In this document: positions 1,245-33,632 of the stretch, one piece after another
Layout: each line of letters starts with the position of its first letter
How positions within the stretch are numbered: position 1 is the stretch's first letter
NCBI GenBank assembly: GCA_018435125.1
Contig: JAHDNZ010000066.1
Coordinates: forward strand, 1 to 33,843
DNA: 33,843 nt
Direction: 5' to 3'
DNA from: Bacillota bacterium
GTDB taxonomy: Bacteria; Bacillota; DTU065
Made by a program: the position numbers and the translations under genes
Notes under the pieces: generated by a model
What the model was told of the DNA's origin: nothing
Database searches by the model: none
What the model saw: the letters and a program-made list of their open reading frames with translations, nothing else

Positions 1245-1273
1245 TTGACAAAACTTGATTTGATGCATATATT
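1245..1273 (+). promoter_or_regulatory. Sigma-A type promoter of the arsR-like gene
   Basis: TTGACA at 1245-1250 and TATATT at 1268-1273 are separated by exactly 17 bases. Transcription would start near 1280, next to the palindrome at 1282-1297. The TTG of the -35 box could be read as an upstream in-frame start codon, but it lies in the promoter. Confidence 0.72.
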
Positions 1274-1281
1274 TATAGCAT

Positions 1282-1297
1282 ATCAAATATTTTTGAT
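1282..1297. promoter_or_regulatory. ArsR-type operator, copy 1
   Basis: Perfect inverted repeat ATCAAA-TATT-TTTGAT, just downstream of the -10 box and ahead of the ribosome binding site of the ArsR-family gene. The same arms and spacing recur at 1662-1677 before the permease. The shared half-sites and placement support autoregulation by the ArsR protein. Binding is inferred, not shown. Confidence 0.68.
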
Positions 1298-1310
1298 GCG
1301 AGGTGATAAT

Positions 1311-1622
1311 TTGGAGACGGTTTATGAGGAACACGCAAAAGTTTTTAAAGCCTTTTGCGACGAAAAACGACTGCGAATACTTGAATTATTATGTAGCGGT
1401 GAAAAATGTGCTTGCGTATTATTGCAACAGATAGATTTGGGGCAGTCAGGGCTTTCCTACCATATGAAAATATTAGTCGAGTCGGGTATTGTGGAGAACC
1501 GACAGGAAGGTAAATGGACACATTACAAAATCAGCGAAAAAGGCAGCACTTATGCTATAGCTTTGCTAAAGGAGCTGACAACGCCAAACACAGTTATAGG
1601 AAAAAATAATTGCTGCAAATGA
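1311..1622 (+). CDS. ArsR/SmtB family metal(loid)-responsive repressor
   Basis: Small winged-helix repressor that releases DNA when it binds a metal or metalloid. I chose the TTG at 1311 because GAGGTGA (1299-1305) sits five bases upstream; the longer frame from 1245 would translate the promoter. The 103-residue product has the family order: helix with FCDEKRLRILELL, then EKCAC (Cys33 and Cys35, the position of the arsenic-sensing CxC of ArsR proteins), recognition helix QSGLSYHMKILVESGI and wing NRQEGKWTHYKI. The C-terminus ends Asn-Cys-Cys-Lys, giving further possible ligands. It is followed by a permease and a Cys-rich thioredoxin-like protein, a set often found in clostridia. Arsenic or antimony is the likeliest inducer, but the actual metal is unproven. 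Confidence 0.9.
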   Translation: METVYEEHAKVFKAFCDEKRLRILELLCSGEKCACVLLQQIDLGQSGLSYHMKILVESGIVENRQEGKWTHYKISEKGSTYAIALLKELTTPNTVIGKNNCCK

Positions 1623-1625
1623 TAA

Positions 1626-1647
1626 GGCCATCCATTTGATGGCTTTT
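1626..1647 (+). terminator. Short intrinsic terminator or attenuator after the arsR-like gene
   Basis: Stem GCCATC/GATGGC with a five-base loop, followed by TTTT. It is weak (6 bp, four T). It lies between the regulator and the second operator, so it may only reduce read-through into the permease. Confidence 0.45.
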
Positions 1648-1661
1648 AACAGGAAGAATAC

Positions 1662-1677
1662 ATCAAAAGATTTTGAT
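1662..1677. promoter_or_regulatory. ArsR-type operator, copy 2
   Basis: Perfect palindrome ATCAAAA-GA-TTTTGAT, sharing the ATCAAA/TTTGAT arms and 4-base spacing with the site at 1282-1297. It lies 33 bases before the permease start. No convincing -35/-10 pair overlaps it, so it may control a weak internal promoter or act as a roadblock. Confidence 0.65.
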
Positions 1678-1709
1678 ATGATTGTCCATTTTAGAAAGAG
1701 GGTTATCTG

Positions 1710-2723
1710 ATGCCAGTGTTAAAAGCAGTCTGGGATTTTTCACAAGACAATATCCTTGGCATGAAATGGCTGAATGATTTAATTGGAGGAGTGTTATCTT
1801 TTTTCGGGTTGGATACCTCCAGTCGCTGGATCGGGAGCATTCAGTTTTTCATTTATGATGTTATAAAAATTGTGGTTCTTTTATGCTTCCTGATCTTTAT
1901 TATCAGCTATATCCAAAGCTACTTCCCGCCGGAACGCAGCAAGAAGATATTAGGACGGTACCACGGTATCGTGGCGAACTCTGTTGCAGCCTTGCTTGGA
2001 ACGGTAACGCCGTTTTGTTCCTGCTCGTCCATTCCGTTATTTATAGGCTTTACATCCGCAGGTTTACCACTCGGAGTCACTTTTTCATTCTTGATTTCTT
2101 CGCCAATGGTAGACTTGGGTTCTCTTGTCCTGTTAATGAGCATATTTGGAGCAAAAGTCGCTATTTTATATGTAATATTCGGTTTGGCAATTGCTATAAT
2201 TGGTGGCACTCTAATCGAGAAAGCGCATATGGAAAAGCATGTTGAGAGCTTTATCTTGACGGCCGGAAGTGTTGATATTGAGTCACCGGATCTTACAAGA
2301 AAAGACCGGTTGATCTATGCAAAGGAACAAACGCTGTCTACATTTAAAAAGGTTTTCCCATACATCCTGATCGGTGTTGGTATAGGTGCCGTTATTCACA
2401 ACTGGATACCCGAGGAATGGGTGGTATCCCTGCTTGGAAGTCAAAACCCCTTCGGCGTAATCTTAGCGACACTCATAGGTGTGCCGATGTATGCTGATAT
2501 CTTTGGCACAATTCCGATTGCTGAAGCACTGCTCTTAAAAGGTGCAAAGCTGGGTACGGTGCTGTCTTTTATGATGGGTGTCACCACGCTGTCTTTGCCA
2601 TCTATTATAATGCTTCGCAAGGCAGTTAAGCCAAAGCTGCTGGCGCTGTTTATTGCCATATGTACGATGGGAATAATTATTGTCGGATATCTATTTAATA
2701 CTTTACAGCCACTTATTATTTAG
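1710..2723 (+). CDS. COG0701/UPF0718 family permease (ArsP-like)
   Basis: Integral membrane permease of 337 residues, probably exporting a metalloid or organo-metalloid. It has about eight to ten hydrophobic segments. The family hallmark TPFCSCSSIPLF (Cys103 and Cys105) is followed by GFTSAGLPLGV and FLISSPMVDLGS; a second half holds GVPMYADIFGTIPIAEALL and a matching hydrophobic repeat. Some family members are proven organoarsenical efflux pumps (ArsP); others have no known substrate. Start ATG 1710 follows AGAGGG. The upstream ArsR gene, the matching operators and the downstream Cys-rich thioredoxin-like protein support metal(loid) resistance. The substrate remains inference. Confidence 0.88.
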   Translation: MPVLKAVWDFSQDNILGMKWLNDLIGGVLSFFGLDTSSRWIGSIQFFIYDVIKIVVLLCFLIFIISYIQSYFPPERSKKILGRYHGIVANSVAALLGTVTPFCSCSSIPLFIGFTSAGLPLGVTFSFLISSPMVDLGSLVLLMSIFGAKVAILYVIFGLAIAIIGGTLIEKAHMEKHVESFILTAGSVDIESPDLTRKDRLIYAKEQTLSTFKKVFPYILIGVGIGAVIHNWIPEEWVVSLLGSQNPFGVILATLIGVPMYADIFGTIPIAEALLLKGAKLGTVLSFMMGVTTLSLPSIIMLRKAVKPKLLALFIAICTMGIIIVGYLFNTLQPLII

Positions 2724-2998
2724 GAATGGCGAAGACCTGGTTTTCTGCTATTTATTAGCTGACTCGTATAGAGTACGGCACCTTGGTTGTGAAGTGGGTT
2801 TTCGGTAGCGTATACGTTGATGGCTTGCCCTTGAGGTGGTAGTAATTGCCCGAAAACTTGAAAAACTTCTTCAGTAGCAAGAAAAATAAATGTGTTTGCA
2901 GAGGTAACTTCTGCTGTTGGAGCAAAAGCTCTTTGAACCAGCTGGTTGGATTTAATATGTTTTATCTGGGATTCTAAAAACGAGAGGAGATATTTATT

Positions 2999-3355
2999 AT
3001 GGCACTGTTTGGAAAGAAAAATAAAAAGCCTCACAAAACCAACTCCTGTTGCTGTGGAGGTAGCTGCGATGCTGAAAGTATGGTAAAGGCAGAAGAAGCG
3101 AAAACCGAAGGCGCAAGTGTGAAAGTTCTTGGAAGCGGTTGCGCAAAATGCAATCAGCTTGAAGCGGCGGCAAAAGCGGCACTTGAACAATTGGGCATGG
3201 ACGTAACGATCGATCATGTGACCGATTTTGCTCAAATCGCAGCTTACGGTGTGATGACTACTCCTGCCCTTGTTGTAGACGGAAAAGTCGTCTCTTACGG
3301 CAAGGTTCTTAAAACTGATGAGGTTGTGAAAATATTAAAAGAAGTTAGAGGATAA
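2999..3355 (+). CDS. Thioredoxin-fold small redox protein with Cys-rich N-terminus
   Basis: A 118-residue thioredoxin-like protein of the redox-active disulfide protein 2 type. Residues 1-40 form a charged leader holding a Cys cluster (Cys17-19, Cys23 in CCCGGSC). The thioredoxin fold follows: VKVLGSGCAKC with active-site Cys48 and Cys51, LEAAAKAALEQLG, and the cis-proline loop TTPALVVDGKVVSYG (Pro89). GAGAGGAG precedes the ATG. Genes like this regularly accompany COG0701 permeases and ArsR regulators, and the protein may reduce or pass on a thiol-bound metal at the membrane. The N-terminal cluster is suggestive of metal binding, but that is inference. A 275-bp gap separates it from the permease, unusually wide for this pair. 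Confidence 0.88.
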   Translation: MALFGKKNKKPHKTNSCCCGGSCDAESMVKAEEAKTEGASVKVLGSGCAKCNQLEAAAKAALEQLGMDVTIDHVTDFAQIAAYGVMTTPALVVDGKVVSYGKVLKTDEVVKILKEVRG

Positions 3356-3511: not shown

Positions 3512-3783
3512 GAAGCAAAAAAAGAGAATCAAACCGCTCAGTTTGCTTCCTATTTGCTTATGCCACCTAAAGACACTTTCCGAAAATGATAAAGAGCGTA
3601 AAAAAGTCAGATTCAAACAAACTGTCAGTAAAGGATGTCGTGCATTGTAAGCATCATTTTGGTGTAAGCAGACAGACAATGGTAATATTATTCCAAAGCC
3701 TGTGTACAACAAGTTGTCTTATCCCGGAATCGGAATATTTAAAAGCTTATTGCAATCCGAGATTCGATGTGATAGTATTGTAA
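3512..3783 (+). pseudogene. ImmA/IrrE metallopeptidase remnant
   Basis: Two frames spell the end of an ImmA/IrrE-family peptidase. From 3512 the first reads ENQTAQFASYLLMPPKDTF, the family's conserved segment after the zinc site, and ends at a TGA. From 3586 the next frame continues with LSVKDVVHCKHHFGVSRQTMVI, the usual helix with VSRQAMxIRL, then a degenerate tail. The HExxH zinc motif is absent upstream. In intact form such enzymes cleave an Xre-type repressor in mobile elements or toxin-antitoxin modules, so this may be the scar of a lost element. The TetR promoter lies over its last bases. Confidence 0.62.
3750..3778 (+). promoter_or_regulatory. Promoter of the TetR-family gene
   Basis: TTGCAA at 3750-3755 and TAGTAT at 3773-3778 with a 17-base spacer. 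The expected start point falls on the palindrome at 3781-3792, as expected for autorepression. Confidence 0.6.
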
Positions 3784-3792
3784 CGAACGTTA
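3781..3792. promoter_or_regulatory. TetR operator, copy 1
   Basis: Palindrome TAACG-AA-CGTTA directly after the -10 box and 18 bases before the TetR start codon. The same core recurs at 4427-4440. Binding is inferred from the match and the positions. Confidence 0.72.
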
Positions 3793-3809
3793 GATAGAGA
3801 GGTGTTGGT

Positions 3810-4370
3810 ATGGCAGAAAAGGATATGAGAGAAAGAATCAAAGAAGTAGCAGTAGAACATTTTAACATTAATGGTTACCATGGAACAACGATCCGCAACA
3901 TAGCAAAAGACGTAGATTGCTCCTTGCCAATGATTTATTACTATTACCATAATAAAAAAGATCTGTTTGATGAGATCATAAAAAAGGAATTTTTCGAACT
4001 GTTAAAAAGGCAGGTATCACTCTTGAGGACAGATAACATCATAGAGCTTTATACAAAGTTTGTGAATGATTTAAATTTCTTGAGCGACTATGATAAAAAG
4101 GTTTATCGCCTTGGAATCAAAGTTTATCTGTCCTTTGATGGCGATGAGGAACTGATGGAGATCATGGATGAGTGGGAAAAGACTATACTTCCAAGGCATT
4201 ATCAGATATTAAAATCACATTTAAAGAACGTAGACAATGATATTGCAGTTATACGAACATTAATACATTTATTGGAAACATTGATAGAAAGTATTGTCGT
4301 CAAAAACAGGTATCTACCTGAAGAAGAAATCCGGGAAGAGATTTCGATCGTTCTTCGTGGGTGTGAATAA
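3810..4370 (+). CDS. TetR/AcrR family transcriptional regulator
   Basis: A 186-residue one-component repressor. Residues 1-50 carry the TetR DNA-binding domain: RIKEVAVEHFNINGYHGTTIRNIAKDVDCSLPMIYYYYHNKKDLFDEII, with the typical G-(F/Y)-x-x-T-x-I turn and YYYYHNKKDLF after the recognition helix. The remaining 130 residues form an all-helical ligand domain with no recognised subfamily. AGAGAGGTG precedes the ATG. Matching palindromes sit at its own promoter and at the promoter of the next gene, so it probably represses itself and the ATC-hydrolase-like gene. The ligand is unknown. Confidence 0.92.
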   Translation: MAEKDMRERIKEVAVEHFNINGYHGTTIRNIAKDVDCSLPMIYYYYHNKKDLFDEIIKKEFFELLKRQVSLLRTDNIIELYTKFVNDLNFLSDYDKKVYRLGIKVYLSFDGDEELMEIMDEWEKTILPRHYQILKSHLKNVDNDIAVIRTLIHLLETLIESIVVKNRYLPEEEIREEISIVLRGCE

Positions 4371-4414
4371 TTGCTATCTGCAGGTGGAGATTTAATTTAA
4401 ACTGTTATGATTGT

Positions 4415-4443
4415 TTTTCATAGTGGCTAACGAACGTTAGAAT
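4415..4443 (+). promoter_or_regulatory. Promoter with embedded TetR operator, copy 2
   Basis: A candidate promoter, TTTTCA (4415-4420), 17 bases, TAGAAT (4438-4443), has the palindrome CTAACG-AA-CGTTAG at 4427-4440 in its spacer and -10 box. The palindrome extends the core found before the TetR gene by one base pair on each side. The -35 box is poor, but the operator match is exact over 12 bases. Confidence 0.68.
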
Positions 4444-4470: not shown

Positions 4471-4920
4471 ATGGATATTGAGAAGAGATTGGCCTTATTA
4501 CAAAATACCTATGCGGCATCTATAGCAGAGACTGTAAACACTTATGATAAGTTACAGGTGCTTGAAACAATCGTAGAGAGAAGAAAAGAGAGGCAAGCAC
4601 AGACAGCAACCTTTTTGAATCAACAACTTGGCATTGAAATCGTTGAGGATGTTTTTGGTAAGCTTTCAGAAATTTATGGGTGTGCTAACTGGTCTGTGGA
4701 AAAAAAAGACGATGGCTATATCGCTACGGCAATATCGTGTAAGTTATGTGCGCTAGCTAAGAAAATGGGAGGAGCAAATCCTTGTAATGGATGGTGCTTA
4801 GATCCTATGTTTGCTATGATCACTGCCATAGAAAAAACCGATGTTGAAAGCATAGTTGTTGAAAGCACTTTAATGGCCGGAGATTGTTGTAAAGTGCTTG
4901 TAAATACCCATATAGAATAA
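4471..4920 (+). CDS. ATC-hydrolase-like Cys-rich protein (PF14196 type)
   Basis: A 149-residue cytosolic protein resembling the family named after L-2-amino-thiazoline-4-carboxylate hydrolase. The N-terminal half is helical (RLALLQNTYAASIAETVNTY). The C-terminal half has the conserved cysteines: Cys90-x-x-Cys93 in SCKLCALAKKMGG, Cys105 and Cys109 in NPCNGWCLDP, and Cys139-Cys140 in MAGDCCKV. AGGAGA precedes the ATG. The gene is preceded by a TetR operator shared with the TetR gene, so it is probably induced by that regulator's ligand. Most family members in clostridia have no proven reaction, and the six cysteines may bind a metal instead. Family call is moderate; substrate unknown. Confidence 0.68.
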   Translation: MDIEKRLALLQNTYAASIAETVNTYDKLQVLETIVERRKERQAQTATFLNQQLGIEIVEDVFGKLSEIYGCANWSVEKKDDGYIATAISCKLCALAKKMGGANPCNGWCLDPMFAMITAIEKTDVESIVVESTLMAGDCCKVLVNTHIE

Positions 4921-5100
4921 AAGATGTTACTAAAATACCATCGACATATGGAAAATGAGAGAGAAATGTATTTATTTTATTATGAAAATGAGAAACTCAA
5001 CAAAATCTTAGTTATGGTATAAGGGTTTTTTGTTTAGGCGAGAGAGTAAAAAAGAGTATATGAAGTCTTTATTAAAGAGGCCTTGAGGAGTTGGTTGAAA

Positions 5101-5841
5101 ATGGAAAAGAAACAAGCCGATCAGAAAAAAATATTGTTATATGGAATTATGATTTTTCTGCTCCTTATTTTTCAAGAAGTTCTAGGCAAGGTGGGGAGAA
5201 GCGTCGCTGATTTACTCTCCTATGAGAGAGTTGATCCCTATAAAGCCTTTGCATGGGTTTCTGTTCACCATATCACTATGATGCTAATTACCCTTGCTGT
5301 AATTATGGTACTAAGCAAGCTGTTGAAAGTTGATTTTGGTTTTAGCCTTGGTGACAAGAAAACAGGGACCAAATATGTAGTTATGTATACGGCCATATTT
5401 ACAGGGGTTACCCTTGTTTTACATATACTTATGCTGATCAATAACAGGCTACCAGTATATGACTTCCCCCTAAACAAAAAGAATATTCTTGGCACGCTTG
5501 GCTTTCAATTGTTCTTAAGCGGGCCTGCTGAAGAGATTCTGTATCGAGCGCTCCCCATAACAATACTTGTGCATGTACTGGGAAAGAGTGTCAAAGTAAA
5601 GTGGGGAATTACATTAGAAACAATCATTGCCTCATTATTATTTGCCATGGCACATATGAAATGGTCTTTATTCCCGTTAACATTTGAAGCGGATTACTTC
5701 AGGTTGTTTTATGCTTTTGTGTTAGGCATTATCCAGGGCAAAGCTTACCAAGATAGTCGTAGTATTTTGTATCCGATGTTTATGCACAGTATCAGTAATG
5801 TGTTAATGGTTGGAATAGGGTATCTGTTTCTTTTACTATAA
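5101..5841 (+). CDS. CPBP family intramembrane metalloprotease (CAAX protease/Abi-like)
   Basis: Membrane protease of 246 residues with about seven to eight hydrophobic segments. The family motifs are present: GPAEEILYRALPI (Glu144, Glu145, Arg149), FAMAHMKW (His185) and FMHSISN (His229, Asn233). ATG 5101 was chosen because TGAGGAG (5084-5090) lies ten bases upstream; TTG codons at 5083 or 5095 are possible but less likely. CPBP proteins cleave within the membrane and serve in prenyl-protein processing, bacteriocin maturation or immunity, or signalling. No bacteriocin gene is visible beside it. It may be co-transcribed with the TetR-controlled gene upstream. Confidence 0.87.
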   Translation: MEKKQADQKKILLYGIMIFLLLIFQEVLGKVGRSVADLLSYERVDPYKAFAWVSVHHITMMLITLAVIMVLSKLLKVDFGFSLGDKKTGTKYVVMYTAIFTGVTLVLHILMLINNRLPVYDFPLNKKNILGTLGFQLFLSGPAEEILYRALPITILVHVLGKSVKVKWGITLETIIASLLFAMAHMKWSLFPLTFEADYFRLFYAFVLGIIQGKAYQDSRSILYPMFMHSISNVLMVGIGYLFLLL

Positions 5842-5959
5842 GACAGGCACATTAACAGCGTTTTTGAATCTAGCTTGTGGTAATAATAGTTGTTGATAAT
5901 TAATAAGGGTCAAGTTATGAATTCTCTTTTTCCTAGGACTCGCCGATAGGTGGCCAGTG

Positions 5960-6542
5960 ATGAGTCTCAAAAGGCGGAAGCAAATACTGGAAAAACAAGG
6001 GAAGATAGGAGATAAAAACGACGAGCATCAAAACGATTAAGCAGCAATATATTGCTGCTTACTTCAGCAGGGCTATCAGCCTCAACATATTATATTTGCT
6101 GGAGATTCTGTGGGAGGGGGGTATTAAGTCTGGTACGCTTCTAAAGCTTAAGGATGATAACATTCCACTACCAGCTGCTTGTGTGGCATTTTCCCCCTAT
6201 CTTGACATGACAATGTCGGGGCAAACGCATCGAACTCGTGCCAAAGTTGATCCTTATACACCCAAAGGCATTACCGAAACTTATTTTGATTATTATGTGA
6301 GCGATGGTGATCCAAAACACCCTTATACTTCACCTCTTTTTGGTAATCTTGAAGGTTTGCCACCAATCATGATTCAGGTTGGCAATAACGAAACTTTGCG
6401 TGATGATTCTATTATGTTTGCTAAAAAAGCGAAAGAGGCAGGAGTAAAAGTGGAGATAAAGGTTTGGGAGGGGATGTTTTATTGCTTCCCTTTGCTCGCC
6501 CCAATGTTCCAGGACGCGACTGAAGCACTTTATGAAGTATGA
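5960..6542 (+). pseudogene. Alpha/beta-hydrolase fold-3 (HSL-type) esterase pseudogene
   Basis: The C-terminal half of a hormone-sensitive-lipase-like esterase is readable across two frames. From 6041 one frame reads GYQPQHIIFAGDSVGGG, the nucleophile elbow, then hits a stop. After a run of six G (6116-6121) the other frame continues KLKDDNIPLPAACVAFSPYLD and then LPPIMIQVGNNETLRDDS, which holds the catalytic Asp. Five G would restore the frame. The expected catalytic His (GMxH) is Tyr in GMFYCF. The HGGG oxyanion-hole segment is absent; a short frame from 5960 (MSLKRRKQILEKQGK) may be a residual N-terminus. A frameshift, a lost His and a missing front half make this a true pseudogene. Confidence 0.78.
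6038..6061. repeat. 24-bp perfect palindrome
   Basis: TAAGCAGCAAT, AT, ATTGCTGCTTA reads identically on both strands. It lies at the junction where recognisable esterase homology begins. It has no T-run, so it is not a standard terminator. It could be an operator, a short mobile repeat or a chance fold-back made by the deletion. Confidence 0.75.
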
Positions 6543-6734
6543 TAGTTTTCTGGTAAAAATTAAATATTTTTTCAACAAATTTAGGCTTGCATCTGAAATG
6601 CTAAACCAGCTGTATAAAAACGAGTTACAAATAACGATTAATATAATACTGCAAGGTCTACCGCCATAAGATATTAAGAAATACAATATCCACCATACCT
6701 CATATATGCTAGAAAGGGAAAGGAATTAAAAAAA

Positions 6735-7628
6735 ATGAAGCCATCTGTGAAACTATTAGTTATTGTTTCTTCTCTGTGCGCAATTATTTCAGCATGCCTG
6801 GGTGTATTTTATTCGTTCGACGGAACAGCTAAAACAGTAACGAATATATACGGACAGGAAATTACCCTGTTTGGAGATGGTATTTACGCATACAATTCAA
6901 TCATGAAGGCGGGAGCTACAAAGGGAACAGACATTGTTATCATAATCACAGCTTTATTGCTGCTTTGTGTTGTGTTGTTTTTTAACCAGAAGAAATACGC
7001 GCCTTTTCTTCAAAGCGGGTTGCTGTCTCTTATTCTTTACGCTTCGACCTGCTTGATCATGGGTGTTAGCTTTAACAGACTGTTTTTGCTTTACACATTG
7101 CAATTTGGAAGCACATTATTTGCATTTATTTTATCAATGGCTGAATTGCTAAAAAATAAATCCTTTAATGATATGGTGTATGCCAAGAAATTAACAGGGA
7201 CAGCAATCTTTATGATCATTTGCGGGTGTTCAGTTCTTGTATGGATGATGTTTATCATTCCATCTGTTGTTTCAGGAAAACCAATGGAAATCATAGATAT
7301 ATACACCACTGAACCAACCTTTGCCATCGATTTGGCTATTATCTTACCATCGGCAATGTTTTGTGGTATCGGGCTGCTAAAGAAAAAAACGGTTGCTTAT
7401 CAGCTTGCGCCTGTCCTACTTACACTATTAACAGGAGTAGGAATTTGTGTTATTTTGCAAACGATAGTCCAATCTGCTTTGGGTATTGTCTTAGATAAGG
7501 GCCAGTTGTTTGGACTGGTGATATCGTTTGTGATACTTGGTATAATTGCTTTTTTATTGAATATCAAACTACTAGCCCAAGTTTCGACTATAAAAGAGGA
7601 AAAAACTGAAGTTACTATTTCCAAATAG
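6735..7628 (+). CDS. Multi-spanning membrane protein of unknown function
   Basis: A 297-residue protein with about eight transmembrane segments. The first starts near residue 7 (LLVIVSSLCAIISACLGVFYSF). A roughly 40-residue outside loop, IYGQEITLFGDGIYAYNSIMKAG, separates it from the next, and the protein ends in a charged tail (TIKEEKTEVTISK). GGGAAAGGAA precedes the ATG, spaced for use. No transporter or enzyme motif is recognised. It is flanked by an esterase pseudogene and a DUF998 membrane protein, which gives no functional clue. It looks like a genuine gene by composition and ribosome binding site. Confidence 0.72.
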   Translation: MKPSVKLLVIVSSLCAIISACLGVFYSFDGTAKTVTNIYGQEITLFGDGIYAYNSIMKAGATKGTDIVIIITALLLLCVVLFFNQKKYAPFLQSGLLSLILYASTCLIMGVSFNRLFLLYTLQFGSTLFAFILSMAELLKNKSFNDMVYAKKLTGTAIFMIICGCSVLVWMMFIIPSVVSGKPMEIIDIYTTEPTFAIDLAIILPSAMFCGIGLLKKKTVAYQLAPVLLTLLTGVGICVILQTIVQSALGIVLDKGQLFGLVISFVILGIIAFLLNIKLLAQVSTIKEEKTEVTISK

Positions 7629-20269: not shown

Positions 20270-21550
20270 TTGAAAAAGTATTGGCTTTTAGCTTTATTTC
20301 TTTTGCTAGCGGTAGCTATACAAGCTGTAACTTTAGAGATGTGGTTTACTCGCGATAATGAGGTAGGAAATGTTATTAAGACAATGACTTCTGAGATTTT
20401 TACTCCTAAAACCGGTATTGATGTCAATATCACTATTATGAATTATGATGATCTGTGGAGCAAAGCAATGCTAGCTCTTGCTTCAGGAGATACACCTGAT
20501 TTGGCTAGTTTTGGTTCGGAATGGCCGGCAGAGTTTGGCATGCGTGGGGGTTTAGTTGATCTAAAAGCTGCTTTTCCCAAAGATTTTGCATCCATGGAAA
20601 AAAAGATGTACCCCGGTCAGATGAGATCACTTGAATTCATGGGAACAGCTTTTGGTATACCAATCGAGTTTGGCTTTGGTCTGATCTATTATCGCACAGA
20701 CATTTTTGCCGAAAATGGTTGGGCTTATCCTGAGACCTGGGATGAAGTTCGGACCTTACTTCCCAAAATGCAAGCTAAGAAAATGAATATGGGATGTATT
20801 TCACAGTATCTCTTGCCAGAATGGCAGACTACACTTAATTTTGTCTGGCAAAATGGTGCTGTTTATGTGAATGAAGATGGCATTAGCTGTGGGCTTAATG
20901 CGCCGGGAGCGATAAAAGGTTTTAAGGAAATGATGGATCTTTTTATCCATTATAAGCTGCCGCAGGAGTTTATACCAATTAGTGCTTTTGCCAATGGTGA
21001 ATATCCAATCGTATCCGGTGGGAATTGGAATTACTCAGCGGTTGACCAAGGATTTCCTAATATACGTGGGAAATGGTCTCTCGGGCTATATCCGGGTACA
21101 AGGCAGCCTAATGGTTCGATAAACCATGCTGTTTATAACGGCCCGCTACCTTTTGGCATTTTTACTTATTCTAAGCACCAAAAAGAAGCCTGGGAGTTTA
21201 TTAAATGGTTTTTTCAAGATGATATTCAAGCTGAATTTGGTAGTAGAATAATGAAGAGAATTCCGGCTGCTTTCTTCTTTTCGGCTAATATGGAAGTAGC
21301 TAAAAAAATCGATTATTTCCCTAAAGAGCATATTAAAACCATGTACGAACAATCTTATCAGTCAATGGCACCAAGATATGGGTTAGGTTCGGTGGTAGGG
21401 TATCGTTTTGTTAGAGATGCAGCGATGAGTGTTTTGTTACAAAATACAAAACCGGAAGAAGCACTAACTAAAGCCTATAAACAGGTAGATGCCGAGATGA
21501 AGCGCAAGGTAGGCGAATTCGAGCGTTTTATAAAACGTATTAAGAAATAA
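20270..21550 (+). CDS. Extracellular sugar-type solute-binding protein, periplasmic
   Basis: A 426-residue binding protein of the COG1653 (UgpB/MalE-like) class. GGAGGGGGAGGG precedes the TTG start. Residues 1-22 form a Sec signal (YWLLALFLLLAVAIQA) with no lipobox. The mature protein has LEMWFTRDNEV at the front, TPKTGIDVNITIMNYDDLWSKAMLALASGDTPDLASFG, ETWDEVRTLLPKMQAKKMN and the hinge-side KEAWEFIKWFFQD. It is probably the sugar-capturing part of an ABC importer, but no permease or ATPase lies within 10 kb on either side. It differs from the pair at 26625 and 28036. Substrate unknown. Confidence 0.9.
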   Translation: MKKYWLLALFLLLAVAIQAVTLEMWFTRDNEVGNVIKTMTSEIFTPKTGIDVNITIMNYDDLWSKAMLALASGDTPDLASFGSEWPAEFGMRGGLVDLKAAFPKDFASMEKKMYPGQMRSLEFMGTAFGIPIEFGFGLIYYRTDIFAENGWAYPETWDEVRTLLPKMQAKKMNMGCISQYLLPEWQTTLNFVWQNGAVYVNEDGISCGLNAPGAIKGFKEMMDLFIHYKLPQEFIPISAFANGEYPIVSGGNWNYSAVDQGFPNIRGKWSLGLYPGTRQPNGSINHAVYNGPLPFGIFTYSKHQKEAWEFIKWFFQDDIQAEFGSRIMKRIPAAFFFSANMEVAKKIDYFPKEHIKTMYEQSYQSMAPRYGLGSVVGYRFVRDAAMSVLLQNTKPEEALTKAYKQVDAEMKRKVGEFERFIKRIKK

Positions 21551-26450: not shown

Positions 26451-26624
26451 TGGCTTATATTTATTATAACCATAAAAACTGTTATTAGCTAGAGAAGAAA
26501 GATTATCTGTTTTTGGATCAATCTGGCAGGGAAACAGCTTAACTTTGGTGTATATATAAGTAAGAGAAGTCTTGTCAGGAAATATTATCTTAATCATGTT
26601 TAAGGAGTGTAGGAGGTTGTGAAA

Positions 26625-27914
26625 TTGACAAAGAAATTGTCAGTCATTCTTTTAGTTTTAGCTTTACTTAGTACAATGACCTTAGCTGCAGACAAGATCA
26701 CAGTCTGGCTAACTGGTCACAACAATGAAGAGATGGGTATAATTAAAGATGTAACAGAAGCAAGCTTTACTGCTAAAACCGGAATTGCAGTTGAATACAC
26801 CAACCTTTCTTGGGGCGATTTTGAAACTCGCTTTCTGTTGGCAGCTGCTTCTGGCGAGGCACCTGATGTGGGTGGAGCTGGCGCTTTGTTTATTCCCGAA
26901 TTAGGTCTTAGAGGAGCAATGATGGATCTCTCTAAGATGCCAGGATTTAATGAGGTATATAATCGGGCTTATCCGGGATTTTATCGCTCACTTCAGTATC
27001 AAAATATAACTTTTGGTGTTCCTTATTCAGCAACAGTTTCGACTGCTTTTCAAAGAGATGATATCCTTAAGGATCTGGGCATAAAAAGCATTAATACCTG
27101 GGATGAATTAAAGCAGGTTTTGCCCAAGATGCAGGCTAAAAACACCAATTTTGCTTTGCAGTGGTATTTAACCGAAACTCTCTATGCCGATGTCAATATG
27201 TTTATGTGGCAAAGAGGCGCCGATGATTATAATGCGGATCTGACTAAATCAGGTTATGACGATCCACAGTGTATTATCGCTTTTAAGGATTTTGTTGAGT
27301 TTTATACTAAATACAAAATACCAAAGGAACTTCCTCATCATCAGGCATTTGTCAGTGGAGATTTAGCTCTGCTTATTCAATATCCTAATTTCTACCAAAA
27401 TCTAATCCATGCAGCTCCTCAGATAGCCGGTAAGTGGAGTATGGTTCAAGCCCCCGGTTATAACATTGGCGGTAAAATAAACCGCACCACAACCGGTGGT
27501 GGCTCCGCTCTTGGTATTTTTAACGCATCTAAGAAGAAGAATCAAGCCTGGGAATTTATTAAATGGATTACCGATGAATCGGTGCAGCTTGAGTTTTCCA
27601 AACGTATTATGGATCAAATAAAAGGCTCAATGTTCCTGCCTTCAAACCGCGGTGCCATAAGCAAAATTTCTATTGATGCCAAAGCTGCCGAAGTCTTTAA
27701 TACGGCTCTTAATACCAGCAAAAGCTCTATTTATGGTCTGGTAGCTCCTAAACATCGTCGCCGCTATCTCCAGATGGCTGCACAAAGATGTATCTTGGAA
27801 GGGGAAGATCCGGAAAAATCTATTCGTAAAGCTGCAGATGAACACAATGAAGAGCTCAGAAGAAAACAGGTTGAATATAATAGGTATATCAAAGAACTGC
27901 TTAAGAAGAAATAA
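26625..27914 (+). CDS. Extracellular sugar-type solute-binding protein, paralogue A
   Basis: A 429-residue COG1653-type binding protein. AGGAGG (26611-26616) lies eight bases before TTG 26625; GTG at 26619 is closer than usual and would only add two residues. Sec signal LSVILLVLALLSTMTLAA without lipobox. Motifs shared with the next gene: ITVWLTG, TNLSWGDFETRFLLAAASGEAPD, PELGLRGA, MFMWQRGADD, APQIAGKWSMVQAPG, QAWEFIKWIT, and the basic C-terminal APKHRRRYLQMA with a helical tail. Both probably bind oligosaccharides or sugars in the periplasm. No transporter membrane genes adjoin. The 27926 terminator separates it from paralogue B. Confidence 0.9.
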   Translation: MTKKLSVILLVLALLSTMTLAADKITVWLTGHNNEEMGIIKDVTEASFTAKTGIAVEYTNLSWGDFETRFLLAAASGEAPDVGGAGALFIPELGLRGAMMDLSKMPGFNEVYNRAYPGFYRSLQYQNITFGVPYSATVSTAFQRDDILKDLGIKSINTWDELKQVLPKMQAKNTNFALQWYLTETLYADVNMFMWQRGADDYNADLTKSGYDDPQCIIAFKDFVEFYTKYKIPKELPHHQAFVSGDLALLIQYPNFYQNLIHAAPQIAGKWSMVQAPGYNIGGKINRTTTGGGSALGIFNASKKKNQAWEFIKWITDESVQLEFSKRIMDQIKGSMFLPSNRGAISKISIDAKAAEVFNTALNTSKSSIYGLVAPKHRRRYLQMAAQRCILEGEDPEKSIRKAADEHNEELRRKQVEYNRYIKELLKKK

Positions 27915-28035: not shown

Positions 28036-29328
28036 ATGAAAAAGTTTCTTTGCTTGTTATTAACAGTAATTATTTTTAGCTTTATAATTAGCGCTAAGCC
28101 ACTTGAAGTTTGGTTAACTGGTTTGACTAATGAAGAATTGAGTATCTTCAGAGAGATGGCAATAGATTACACTCAAAAATATGGAACCGAAGTAGTACTA
28201 ACAAATCTGAGTTGGTCTGATTTTGAAAATCGCTTTATCCTAGCAGCAGCCTCACACGAGACACCCGATATCGGAGGTATGGGACCTCTTTTTGCTCCTG
28301 AGCTAGGTCTTAGAGGCGCAGTTATCGACTTAAAAGCCAATTTTAGCGATTTTAGCGAAGTTGCATCACGTGTACCACCTAATTTTTTCCGAGCATTATC
28401 ATACCAGGGTTCGATCTTTGGAATCCCCTACAATGCTAATGTCACTGTTGGTTTTCAGAGAAATGATATATTACAACAGTTAGGTTTTTCTACGGAGCTT
28501 AAAACTTGGGATGAAATAAGAGCAATTCTACCAAAAGCTCAAGTTAAGGACAGTAATATAGCTCTGCAATGCGGTTTATCAGAAAATGTGTATGCTGATC
28601 TTAATATATTTATGTGGCAACATGGTGGGGACGATTTTACTCCTGATCTTAGAAAATCCGGTTTCGATTCACCTCAGTCTATCAAAGCCTTTAAGGAGTA
28701 TGTTGAATTATATACTAAATATAAGATACTTAAAGAGGTACCGTTTTTTCAAGCTTTTAGTACAGGAGAGCTCTTTTATATGCTCCAATATCAAAACATG
28801 TACACCAATTTAAAAACAGCAGCACCTCAAATTGCAGGTAAATGGAATATGGTCCAGGTGCCTGGTACTTACCAGGGAAAAGATTTAAAAAGAACTGCCT
28901 CAGCCGGCGGAGCAGCACTTACCATCTTTAGGGATTCCAAAATGAAAAAAGAAGCTTGGAACTTTATTCGCTGGATAACTGAAGTTCGAGTACAAGCGGA
29001 GTTTTCCAAGCAAGTGACGACAAAGATCCCTGGCTCTATTTTTGTGCCATCAAACCGTGAAGCAGTTTTGAAGCTAGATATGCCCCAAGAGGCTATACAG
29101 CTAATGTTAAAGGCTGTAGATGAGGGATCTATTTCCATTTATGGCTTAGTTGCACCTAAGCTTCGCCGCAGATACCTCCAGTTTGCAGCCCATGAAGCTA
29201 TCCTACAAGGCGTAGATCCTGAAACTGCTATCCGCAAGTATGCTGATGAACATAATGTTGAGATTAAGAAAAAAGAAAAAGAATATGCTCGCTTTATCGC
29301 CACTCTTCTAAAAGAGCAAGGTAAATGA
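28036..29328 (+). CDS. Extracellular sugar-type solute-binding protein, paralogue B
   Basis: A 430-residue protein that is a clear paralogue of the preceding gene. Shared stretches include LEVWLTGLTNEEL, TNLSWSDFENRFILAAASHETPD, PELGLRGAVIDL, IFMWQHGGDDF, AAPQIAGKWNMVQVPG, EAWNFIRWIT and APKLRRRYLQFAAHEAILQG. Sec signal FLCLLLTVIIFSFIISA; its Cys6 is not in a lipobox. AAGGAGGATCT precedes the ATG. The two genes have separate terminators, so they can be expressed apart. Divergence in the ligand-side loops suggests different sugars. Confidence 0.9.
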   Translation: MKKFLCLLLTVIIFSFIISAKPLEVWLTGLTNEELSIFREMAIDYTQKYGTEVVLTNLSWSDFENRFILAAASHETPDIGGMGPLFAPELGLRGAVIDLKANFSDFSEVASRVPPNFFRALSYQGSIFGIPYNANVTVGFQRNDILQQLGFSTELKTWDEIRAILPKAQVKDSNIALQCGLSENVYADLNIFMWQHGGDDFTPDLRKSGFDSPQSIKAFKEYVELYTKYKILKEVPFFQAFSTGELFYMLQYQNMYTNLKTAAPQIAGKWNMVQVPGTYQGKDLKRTASAGGAALTIFRDSKMKKEAWNFIRWITEVRVQAEFSKQVTTKIPGSIFVPSNREAVLKLDMPQEAIQLMLKAVDEGSISIYGLVAPKLRRRYLQFAAHEAILQGVDPETAIRKYADEHNVEIKKKEKEYARFIATLLKEQGK

Positions 29329-32098: not shown

Positions 32099-32222
32099 GT
32101 TATCTGTGTTTATGGGTGTATAAATATTTCATTTAAATTAGTACAACTGTCTCATAGTGCTTTTAGCACTTGAGAGGTATATCTTACGTAGTCTATAGGG
32201 AACAGGAAGAGAGGTGTTATTT

Positions 32223-33632
32223 ATGGCAGAATGCCAAGGCACAATCTATACTGTGCGAAAAGGCGATACTCTATGGGAAATTGCTCAAAAGAATAATTTG
32301 ACTGTTGAAGCCATATTAAATGCGAATCCTCAAATTAATGACCCGGCGAAACTGCAGATTGGTCAGGAAATATGTCTTCCGACTGCAACTCCGGGGCCGC
32401 CTCCACCAGCACAATGCCCTGGCCAATACTATACAGTGCAAGCAGGCGATTCTTTGTATAAGATTGCACAGCGTTTTGGCACTACGGTTGATGCTATTTT
32501 AAGAGTGAATCCCCAAATAACTGATCCTAACCGGTTGCAGGTAGGTCAAATTATCTGTATCCCGGTAGGACCACCAGGTCCCACTCCTCCGCCTCCACCA
32601 GCACAATGCCCTGGCCAATACTATACAGTGCAAGCAGGCGATTCTTTGTATAAGATTGCACAGCGTTTTGGCACTACGGTTGATGCTATTTTAAGAGTGA
32701 ATCCCCAAATAACCGATCCTAACCGGTTGCAGGTAGGTCAAATTATCTGTATTCCGGTAGGGCCACCAGGTCCCACTCCTCCGCCTCCACCGGCACAATG
32801 CCCTGGCCAATACTATACGGTGCAAGCAGGCGATTCTTTGTATAAGATTGCACAGCGTTTTGGTACTACGGTTGATGCTATTTTAAGAGTGAATCCCCAA
32901 ATAACCGATCCTAACCGGCTGCAGGTAGGTCAAATTATCTGTATTCCGGTAGGGCTACCCTGTCCGGGTCAGCTCTATACAATCCAGGCAGGTGATACAC
33001 TCTTTAGTATAGCTCAAAAATTTAACGTAACGGTGGATGCTATTATAGCGGCCAATCCCGGTATAGATCCTAACAATCTTCGTATAGGTCAGGTTATCTG
33101 TATTCCCACAGGTATACCAGAGTGTCCCGGAATAATATACACCATTCAAGCAGGTGATACTTTATATAACCTAGCCATTCGTTATAATACTACTGTAAGC
33201 TGTATTCTGCGTTTCAATCCGGGTTTAGATCCCAATAGACTCCAGATTGGTCAACGCATCTGCATTCCTACAGGACCATGCGATATCGTGGGCAAAAGAT
33301 GTCAGATATTGATGAGAACTAATTCAGCACCACTTGCTGACGGATTTGGTATATATGACTATGACGCTAACACAGTATCTGTATTAGCAACTGGTCTTCC
33401 CGATCCGGAAAGTTTAGGTGGTATGGTCTATAGAGTCTTTGTTAGAGATAAAGCTAGCCAACAATGGCAAGCAGCTACAATGTATATTACGCCTGATGGG
33501 GTATGGGCGGGTATAGTACGCTTACCTAAAGCTATAGAACTCTATGATTTTGTTTATGTATCTGCTGAGCAAAGAGATTCAACCAGCCCAATTGGGGTTA
33601 TAGTTCTAAGAGGAGATATCTCTAAAGCTTAA
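32223..33632 (+). CDS. Six-LysM protein with unassigned C-terminal domain
   Basis: A 469-residue protein, probably of the cell surface or spore coat. ATG 32223 follows GAGAGGTG; no signal peptide is seen. It holds six LysM domains: the first (IYTVRKGDTLWEIAQKNNL) is divergent; the second to fourth are near copies beginning CPGQYYTVQAGDSLYKIAQ and joined by Pro-rich linkers (GPTPPPPPAQ); the fifth and sixth (CPGQLYTIQAGDTLFSIAQ, CPGIIYTIQAGDTLYNLAI) are again distinct. Each repeat has Cys near both ends, so disulfides are possible. The last 115 residues (CDIVGKRCQILMRTNSAP... to LRGDISKA) look beta-rich and unrelated to LysM. LysM binds peptidoglycan or chitin-like glycans. Confidence 0.88.
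   Translation: MAECQGTIYTVRKGDTLWEIAQKNNLTVEAILNANPQINDPAKLQIGQEICLPTATPGPPPPAQCPGQYYTVQAGDSLYKIAQRFGTTVDAILRVNPQITDPNRLQVGQIICIPVGPPGPTPPPPPAQCPGQYYTVQAGDSLYKIAQRFGTTVDAILRVNPQITDPNRLQVGQIICIPVGPPGPTPPPPPAQCPGQYYTVQAGDSLYKIAQRFGTTVDAILRVNPQITDPNRLQVGQIICIPVGLPCPGQLYTIQAGDTLFSIAQKFNVTVDAIIAANPGIDPNNLRIGQVICIPTGIPECPGIIYTIQAGDTLYNLAIRYNTTVSCILRFNPGLDPNRLQIGQRICIPTGPCDIVGKRCQILMRTNSAPLADGFGIYDYDANTVSVLATGLPDPESLGGMVYRVFVRDKASQQWQAATMYITPDGVWAGIVRLPKAIELYDFVYVSAEQRDSTSPIGVIVLRGDISKA
32401..32953 (+). repeat. Three tandem 192-bp repeats inside the LysM gene
   Basis: Units start near 32401, 32593 and 32785 and differ at only a few bases (for example AACTGATCC versus AACCGATCC). Each codes one LysM plus a Pro-rich linker, 64 residues. 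The last unit lacks its linker. Such high identity marks recent duplication or gene conversion. Confidence 0.9.

Follow-up and report, generated by a model that had tools for sequence, protein, structure and literature searches.

A predicted TetR-family repressor module with conserved operators before tetR and an ATC-hydrolase-like gene in Bacillota

The window, that is, the whole stretch of 33,843 nucleotides that was analysed, contains a tetR gene followed by a gene for a cysteine-rich protein (atcH) and a gene for a CPBP intramembrane protease (cpbp). The features considered here are the following:

3750..3778, + strand: predicted tetR promoter, TTGCAA-17-TAGTAT, with 8 of 12 consensus matches
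3780..3793, + strand: operator 1 (GTAACGAACGTTAG), covering the predicted tetR transcription start
3810..4370, + strand: TetR-family regulator of 186 aa (PF00440, E=2.6e-9, 37.2 bits against a cutoff of 24)
4415..4443, + strand: predicted atcH promoter, TTTTCA-17-TAGAAT, with operator 2 in its spacer
4427..4440, + strand: operator 2 (CTAACGAACGTTAG), in the predicted atcH promoter
4471..4920, + strand: AtcH, Cys-rich, 149 aa, a remote relative of PF14196 (ATC_hydrolase) with a predicted V4R/TRAPP-like fold
5083..5841, + strand: CPBP (Rce1-like) intramembrane protease (PF02517, E=9.2e-13, 48.7 bits against a cutoff of 22.4)
6735..7628, + strand: polytopic membrane protein with no Pfam family, conserved in L055, close to the module, and in L173, immediately 3' of atcH

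A metalloid-type cassette, unrelated to the tetR module, lies just upstream (1245-3355) and encodes an ArsR-type regulator, an ArsP-like permease and a small MTH895/ArsE-family thioredoxin. A hormone-sensitive-lipase-type esterase ORF (6096-6542) matches only the C-terminal part of its family and is probably a truncated gene. Three related extracellular sugar-binding-like proteins are encoded within a 9-kb stretch (20270-21550, 26619-27914 and 28036-29328), and the LysM protein encoded at 32214-33632 has tandem repeats that are nearly identical.

The TetR protein was modelled as all-helical, with ten helices, a C-terminal ligand/dimer domain and a pLDDT of 90, and the Foldseek matches of this model were TetR-family structures, with E-values to 2.9e-5 and TM up to 0.78. 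Its best relatives among curated families are of the RefZ and AcrR types, and none comes near its equivalog cutoff; the best NCBIfam match is RefZ (2.6e-13), and identification as RefZ (NF037937) was rejected at 50.3 bits against an equivalog cutoff of 180. The best PDB profile matches include RefZ (6mj1) and IcaR (3geu, 2zcn). Orthology to IcaR was also rejected, given that the IcaR operator (ACCTANCTNNC/GNNAGNTAGGT; PMC8019970) is a different, longer palindrome. The profile alignment to QacR extends over nearly the full QacR length with an E-value of about 1e-10, and the TetR_N domain, the all-helical fold, the predicted operators in promoters and the neighbouring target gene are shared with autoregulated repressors of the QacR/qacA type. 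Unlike in those systems, the predicted target in the window is an AtcH-like protein and not an efflux pump, and the operator word is short, at 12-14 bp.

The operator word and its promoter geometry

The window contains the word TAACGAACGTTA at two places and no others, 3781-3792 (+ strand) before tetR and 4428-4439 before atcH, and no copy was present in any of 100 dinucleotide-preserving shuffles of the window. The earlier note had reported the word at the first position and its form extended by one base on either side at 4427-4440, and both coordinates hold exactly. Throughout the whole genome (2,547,125 bases), the only exact copies are these two at the tetR-atcH locus, compared with one occurrence of the reversed control pattern. 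When three mismatches were allowed, 28 matches were observed against 28.9 expected, which is background, so only exact or near-exact copies of the word are informative. Since near matches with up to three mismatches were at or below the control count, no additional target is claimed in the window's genome. No occurrence of the word was found in the published literature searched.

The operator consists of two inverted half-sites, 5 bp each and 6 bp at the second copy, around an asymmetric central AA, and owing to this asymmetry it is not a perfect palindrome. The orientation of the AA relative to the gene is kept at nearly all promoter sites, non-homologous promoters included, as seen at both sites of the window and at L045 5206, L109 3012, L110 3005 and L117 3287. 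Such a fixed orientation is not required by a symmetric dimer.

Operator 1 begins 2 bp 3' of the tetR -10 box and ends 17 bp 5' of the ATG at 3810; its description in the earlier note as lying at the start point of tetR is right for the predicted transcription start and wrong for the start codon. The 2-bp spacing between the -10 box and the operator is kept in nearly all relative loci, and the tetR promoters of several relatives are a perfect TTGACA-17-TATAAT. The predicted atcH promoter is weaker by consensus than that of tetR. The last two bases of operator 2 are the first two of the atcH -10-like hexamer TAGAAT, and several relatives also have the operator in the spacer of the atcH promoter, flanked by -35-like and -10-like boxes, a geometry that we infer from these weaker consensus matches. 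Sites over +1 or between the -35 and -10 boxes are typical repressor positions. By eye, a terminator-like hairpin (CGGCA...TGCCGTTTTATATT) was seen between tetR and the atcH operator in L042, L046, L048, L050 and L056, where atcH would have to use its own promoter.

Conservation, specificity and transfer

A search of the genome collection with AtcH as query returned 27 loci, mostly from Bacillota bins, with the cultured Syntrophaceticus schinkii (L034) among them. In nearly all 27, tetR lies directly 5' of atcH and is preceded by the operator, and most carry a second operator before atcH; this second copy has one mismatch in L030, L032, L033, L034, L037, L043 and L047, and no recognisable operator was found before atcH in two of the 27 (L051 and L052). 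The earlier note had named the lack of a conserved palindrome near tetR orthologues as one outcome that would refute the reading; the palindrome is kept before both tetR and atcH in most of these loci, and the reading was not refuted. The search of related genomes that the earlier note had proposed shows it recurring at about 30 loci of distantly related anaerobes, which belong to many Bacillota families and to bins labelled Thermotogota and Atribacterota. In the alignment of the tetR upstream regions of about 30 loci, the 12-mer is the most conserved block, and upstream of atcH the main conserved block is formed by the operator and the ribosome-binding site.

In three diverged versions of the module, operator variants match at both promoters: CTAACGAACGTAAG occurs twice in L171 (G305), and ATAACGAACGTTAT stands at both promoters in L128 (G039), where TetR is 29% identical, and in L173 (G365). 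The same variant at both sites is the trace expected of one protein reading both. What these loci share is a pair of conserved, co-varying predicted operators at fixed promoter positions, together with the co-occurrence of tetR and atcH, and the proposal that TetR controls its own gene and the ATC-hydrolase-like gene is supported, at the level of sequence, by such operators before both.

Pairwise distances of TetR and AtcH are correlated (r = 0.72, with a permutation maximum of 0.39), indicating that tetR and atcH travel together, and the genes outside tetR-atcH-cpbp vary from locus to locus, the pattern of a moving cassette. Bins of different taxa are intermingled in the TetR tree, which has little support; transfer of the cassette between genomes is therefore likely, short of proof. 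Given that most loci come from metagenome bins, misbinning may overstate the taxonomic spread. No AtcH relatives were found in plasmid and viral collections, and so nothing there points to plasmids or phages as vehicles; a scan of viral contigs with the 14-mer gave 43 stretches.

Frameshifted or stop-containing copies were observed for atcH in L004/G003, L055/G101 and L054 and for tetR in L172/G402, one of these broken copies being from a member of the window's own family. L031 is rearranged (4853-7447), with two operators before atcH, then a MATE transporter fragment and then tetR with its own operator; one of the two atcH-side operators resembles an old tetR promoter.

In a phylum set of 399 genomes, 13 of which carry this TetR, the composite of a -10 box, 2 bp and TAACGAACGTTA was detected in 11 genomes, including 9 of the 13 (Fisher p = 6e-14); with one extra base between the -10 box and the operator, only 1 of the 399 genomes matched. 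In the other two genomes with the composite, G143 and G379, it stands before a different TetR gene, followed in G379 by a nitroreductase-like gene, and in G134 the operator precedes a third TetR gene at a slightly different spacing. By locus, the sites before other TetR genes, which are only distantly related, lie in L113 (4095), L126 (3066) and L247 (1509), the last followed by a nitroreductase-like gene. Since several TetR groups share the operator word, finding it is not enough to identify this regulator. Two candidate extra targets were rejected: the site in G078 (L112) lies within a coding frame, as do those in G105, G007 and others, and was taken as chance, and the contig-end site in G083 (L115) belongs to that genome's own tetR promoter, which the assembly had split.

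The CPBP gene and the AtcH protein

The CPBP translation contains the EExxxR (EEILYR) and FxxxH (FAMAH) motifs. In the window, no operator lies directly before cpbp, which follows atcH after a gap of about 160-180 bp, so that control there would be by read-through. Two relatives do have an operator directly before cpbp, L045 (G071) and L117 (G109), which supports the guarded suggestion of the earlier note that the protease gene might also be controlled; in L117, the order is tetR, operator and cpbp, and atcH is absent from the locus. In G071, further operators stand before an ABC exporter gene pair (L109) and a nitroreductase gene (L110), both unlinked to this locus, and at these two sites and the one before cpbp the -10 box has exactly the same spacing. 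The two additions to the regulon in this one relative, the exporter being of the multidrug/lipid type, suggest that the compound responded to is toxic and possibly electrophilic or membrane-active. Nothing relevant to a TetR/CPBP regulon was found in the published literature searched.

It is conceivable, although we think it the less probable case, that TetR controls only itself and atcH, with cpbp a cassette neighbour that has its own promoter and is unregulated in the window. The operator-free gap before cpbp is consistent with this, as are the other genes that lie between atcH and cpbp in L046, L051 and L056 and the several loci that have no cpbp within the DNA covered. However, the operators directly before cpbp in the two relatives argue against it, in many loci cpbp follows atcH at a distance of no more than about 1.1 kb, and a scan detected no + strand terminator between atcH and cpbp. 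Inclusion of cpbp in the regulon, probably by read-through in the window, is the reading that we retain.

The polytopic membrane protein at 6735..7628 is a possible accessory of the module. In about ten relatives, a small conserved ORF of about 40-78 aa (YEYEKxNKxxYDxxREFCLCEKxNEEYxRSLIKK) follows either atcH, ahead of cpbp, or cpbp itself (for example, L034 5582-5791, L037 5503-5688 and L033 5510-5620); only the degenerate start of it is left in the window, at 4965-5021.

The earlier note had called the product of atcH a Cys-rich ATC-hydrolase-like enzyme. The enzyme label has weak support. Four cysteines (C90, C105, C109 and C140) are kept in all of ten diverged sequences, and a homologue that is 37% identical (L174) passes the PF14196 threshold (30.6 bits against a cutoff of 28.1), but the window protein itself does not reach this gathering cutoff, with 16.2 bits, and its predicted fold is V4R/TRAPP-like. 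The AtcH model has a pLDDT of 93, and its Foldseek matches, weak though consistent with one another, include TRAPP Bet3, the V4R domain of MopR (TMq 0.56) and YslB, with E-values of 0.02-0.8 and none below 0.001; BcsD slightly outscored these V4R/TRAPP-type matches. No solved structures related to AtcH by sequence were found. ATC hydrolase, V4R and HNOB have been grouped together, with a three-cysteine cluster in common, in a wider V4R/HNOB-like group that contains PF14196 and includes sensor domains (PMC5847659). AtcH resembles the V4R (PF02830)/HNOB/MetOD1 group in its conserved cysteine cluster (PMC5847659) and PF14196 in its remote profile similarity, and it differs from them in scoring below the Pfam cutoff, in being free-standing and in its predicted regulation by TetR. 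The best reading is that AtcH is a ligand- or metal-binding protein, hydrolase being only a name, and its conserved cysteines would probably bind a metal.

That AtcH could be a true L-2-amino-thiazoline-4-carboxylate hydrolase, and the module a switch for thiazoline or cysteine catabolism, appears improbable. The remote similarity to PF14196 and the homologue above the cutoff speak for it, whereas the window protein's own score, the placement of PF14196 in a wider group with sensor domains and the lack of any recognised gene for a cysteine or thiazoline pathway beside atcH or in the regulon all count against it.

A diverged atcH gene adjoins a gene of about 230 aa in four genomes that lack this TetR. 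This neighbour was identified as an ECF sigma factor gene in L174 (5120-5812), L175 (3813-4499) and L176 (4943-5632), while its counterpart in L177 (4894-5595) is such by position and size only. The ECF sigma factor may represent an alternative regulator for the AtcH family.

Regulatory model and significance

We consider it probable that the locus is a self-contained TetR repressor module acting on its own gene, on atcH and, probably by read-through, on cpbp, and relieved by a ligand. A TetR dimer would bind operator 1 over its own transcription start and thereby repress itself, and binding to operator 2 between the -35 and -10 boxes of atcH would repress atcH and with it cpbp. A small molecule in the C-terminal pocket of TetR would then release the DNA and turn the genes on, and AtcH, with its predicted V4R/TRAPP-like fold and relation to PF14196, would probably bind or process the inducing compound or a related one. 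We infer repression as opposed to activation, the ligand mechanism, the activity of AtcH and the role in stress. Judged from the sequences compared, this is very likely a genuine control circuit of an ordinary kind, and the most likely reading is a local, ligand-relieved TetR regulon for stress or detoxification that is often transferred as a cassette.

Some TetR-family proteins activate transcription, and in most relatives atcH matches the -35/-10 consensus less well than tetR does, as might be expected if TetR were an activator or dual regulator at atcH. This seems unlikely, however, because the operator lies within the promoter spacer and overlaps the -10 box, a position that normally blocks polymerase, and because the operators of tetR, cpbp, the ABC exporter and the nitroreductase lie over the start site. 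An explanation of the two sites as a mobile repeat element or a repeat arisen by chance, in place of operators, is refuted computationally by their absence from shuffles, their fixed promoter geometry and their conservation and co-variation across diverged loci, even though the exact word also occurs within coding sequences of unrelated genomes.

Beyond the repressor module itself, we put forward more tentatively that a free-standing, V4R-fold AtcH could serve in metal/cysteine-based detoxification or ligand handling for an unrecognised toxic class, with TetR sensing the compound. In that case, tetR-atcH(-cpbp) would be a transferable resistance unit of anaerobic Bacillota, and the AtcH proteins linked to ECF sigma factors would represent a second control route.

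The operator word and its promoter geometry make annotation of the regulon possible across genomes, with TANNNTNNTAACGAACGTTA as the search word for listing it in genomes that carry this TetR. A regulatory context is now attached to a barely studied PF14196-like, V4R-fold family, whose usual name refers to an activity that may be absent from these members.
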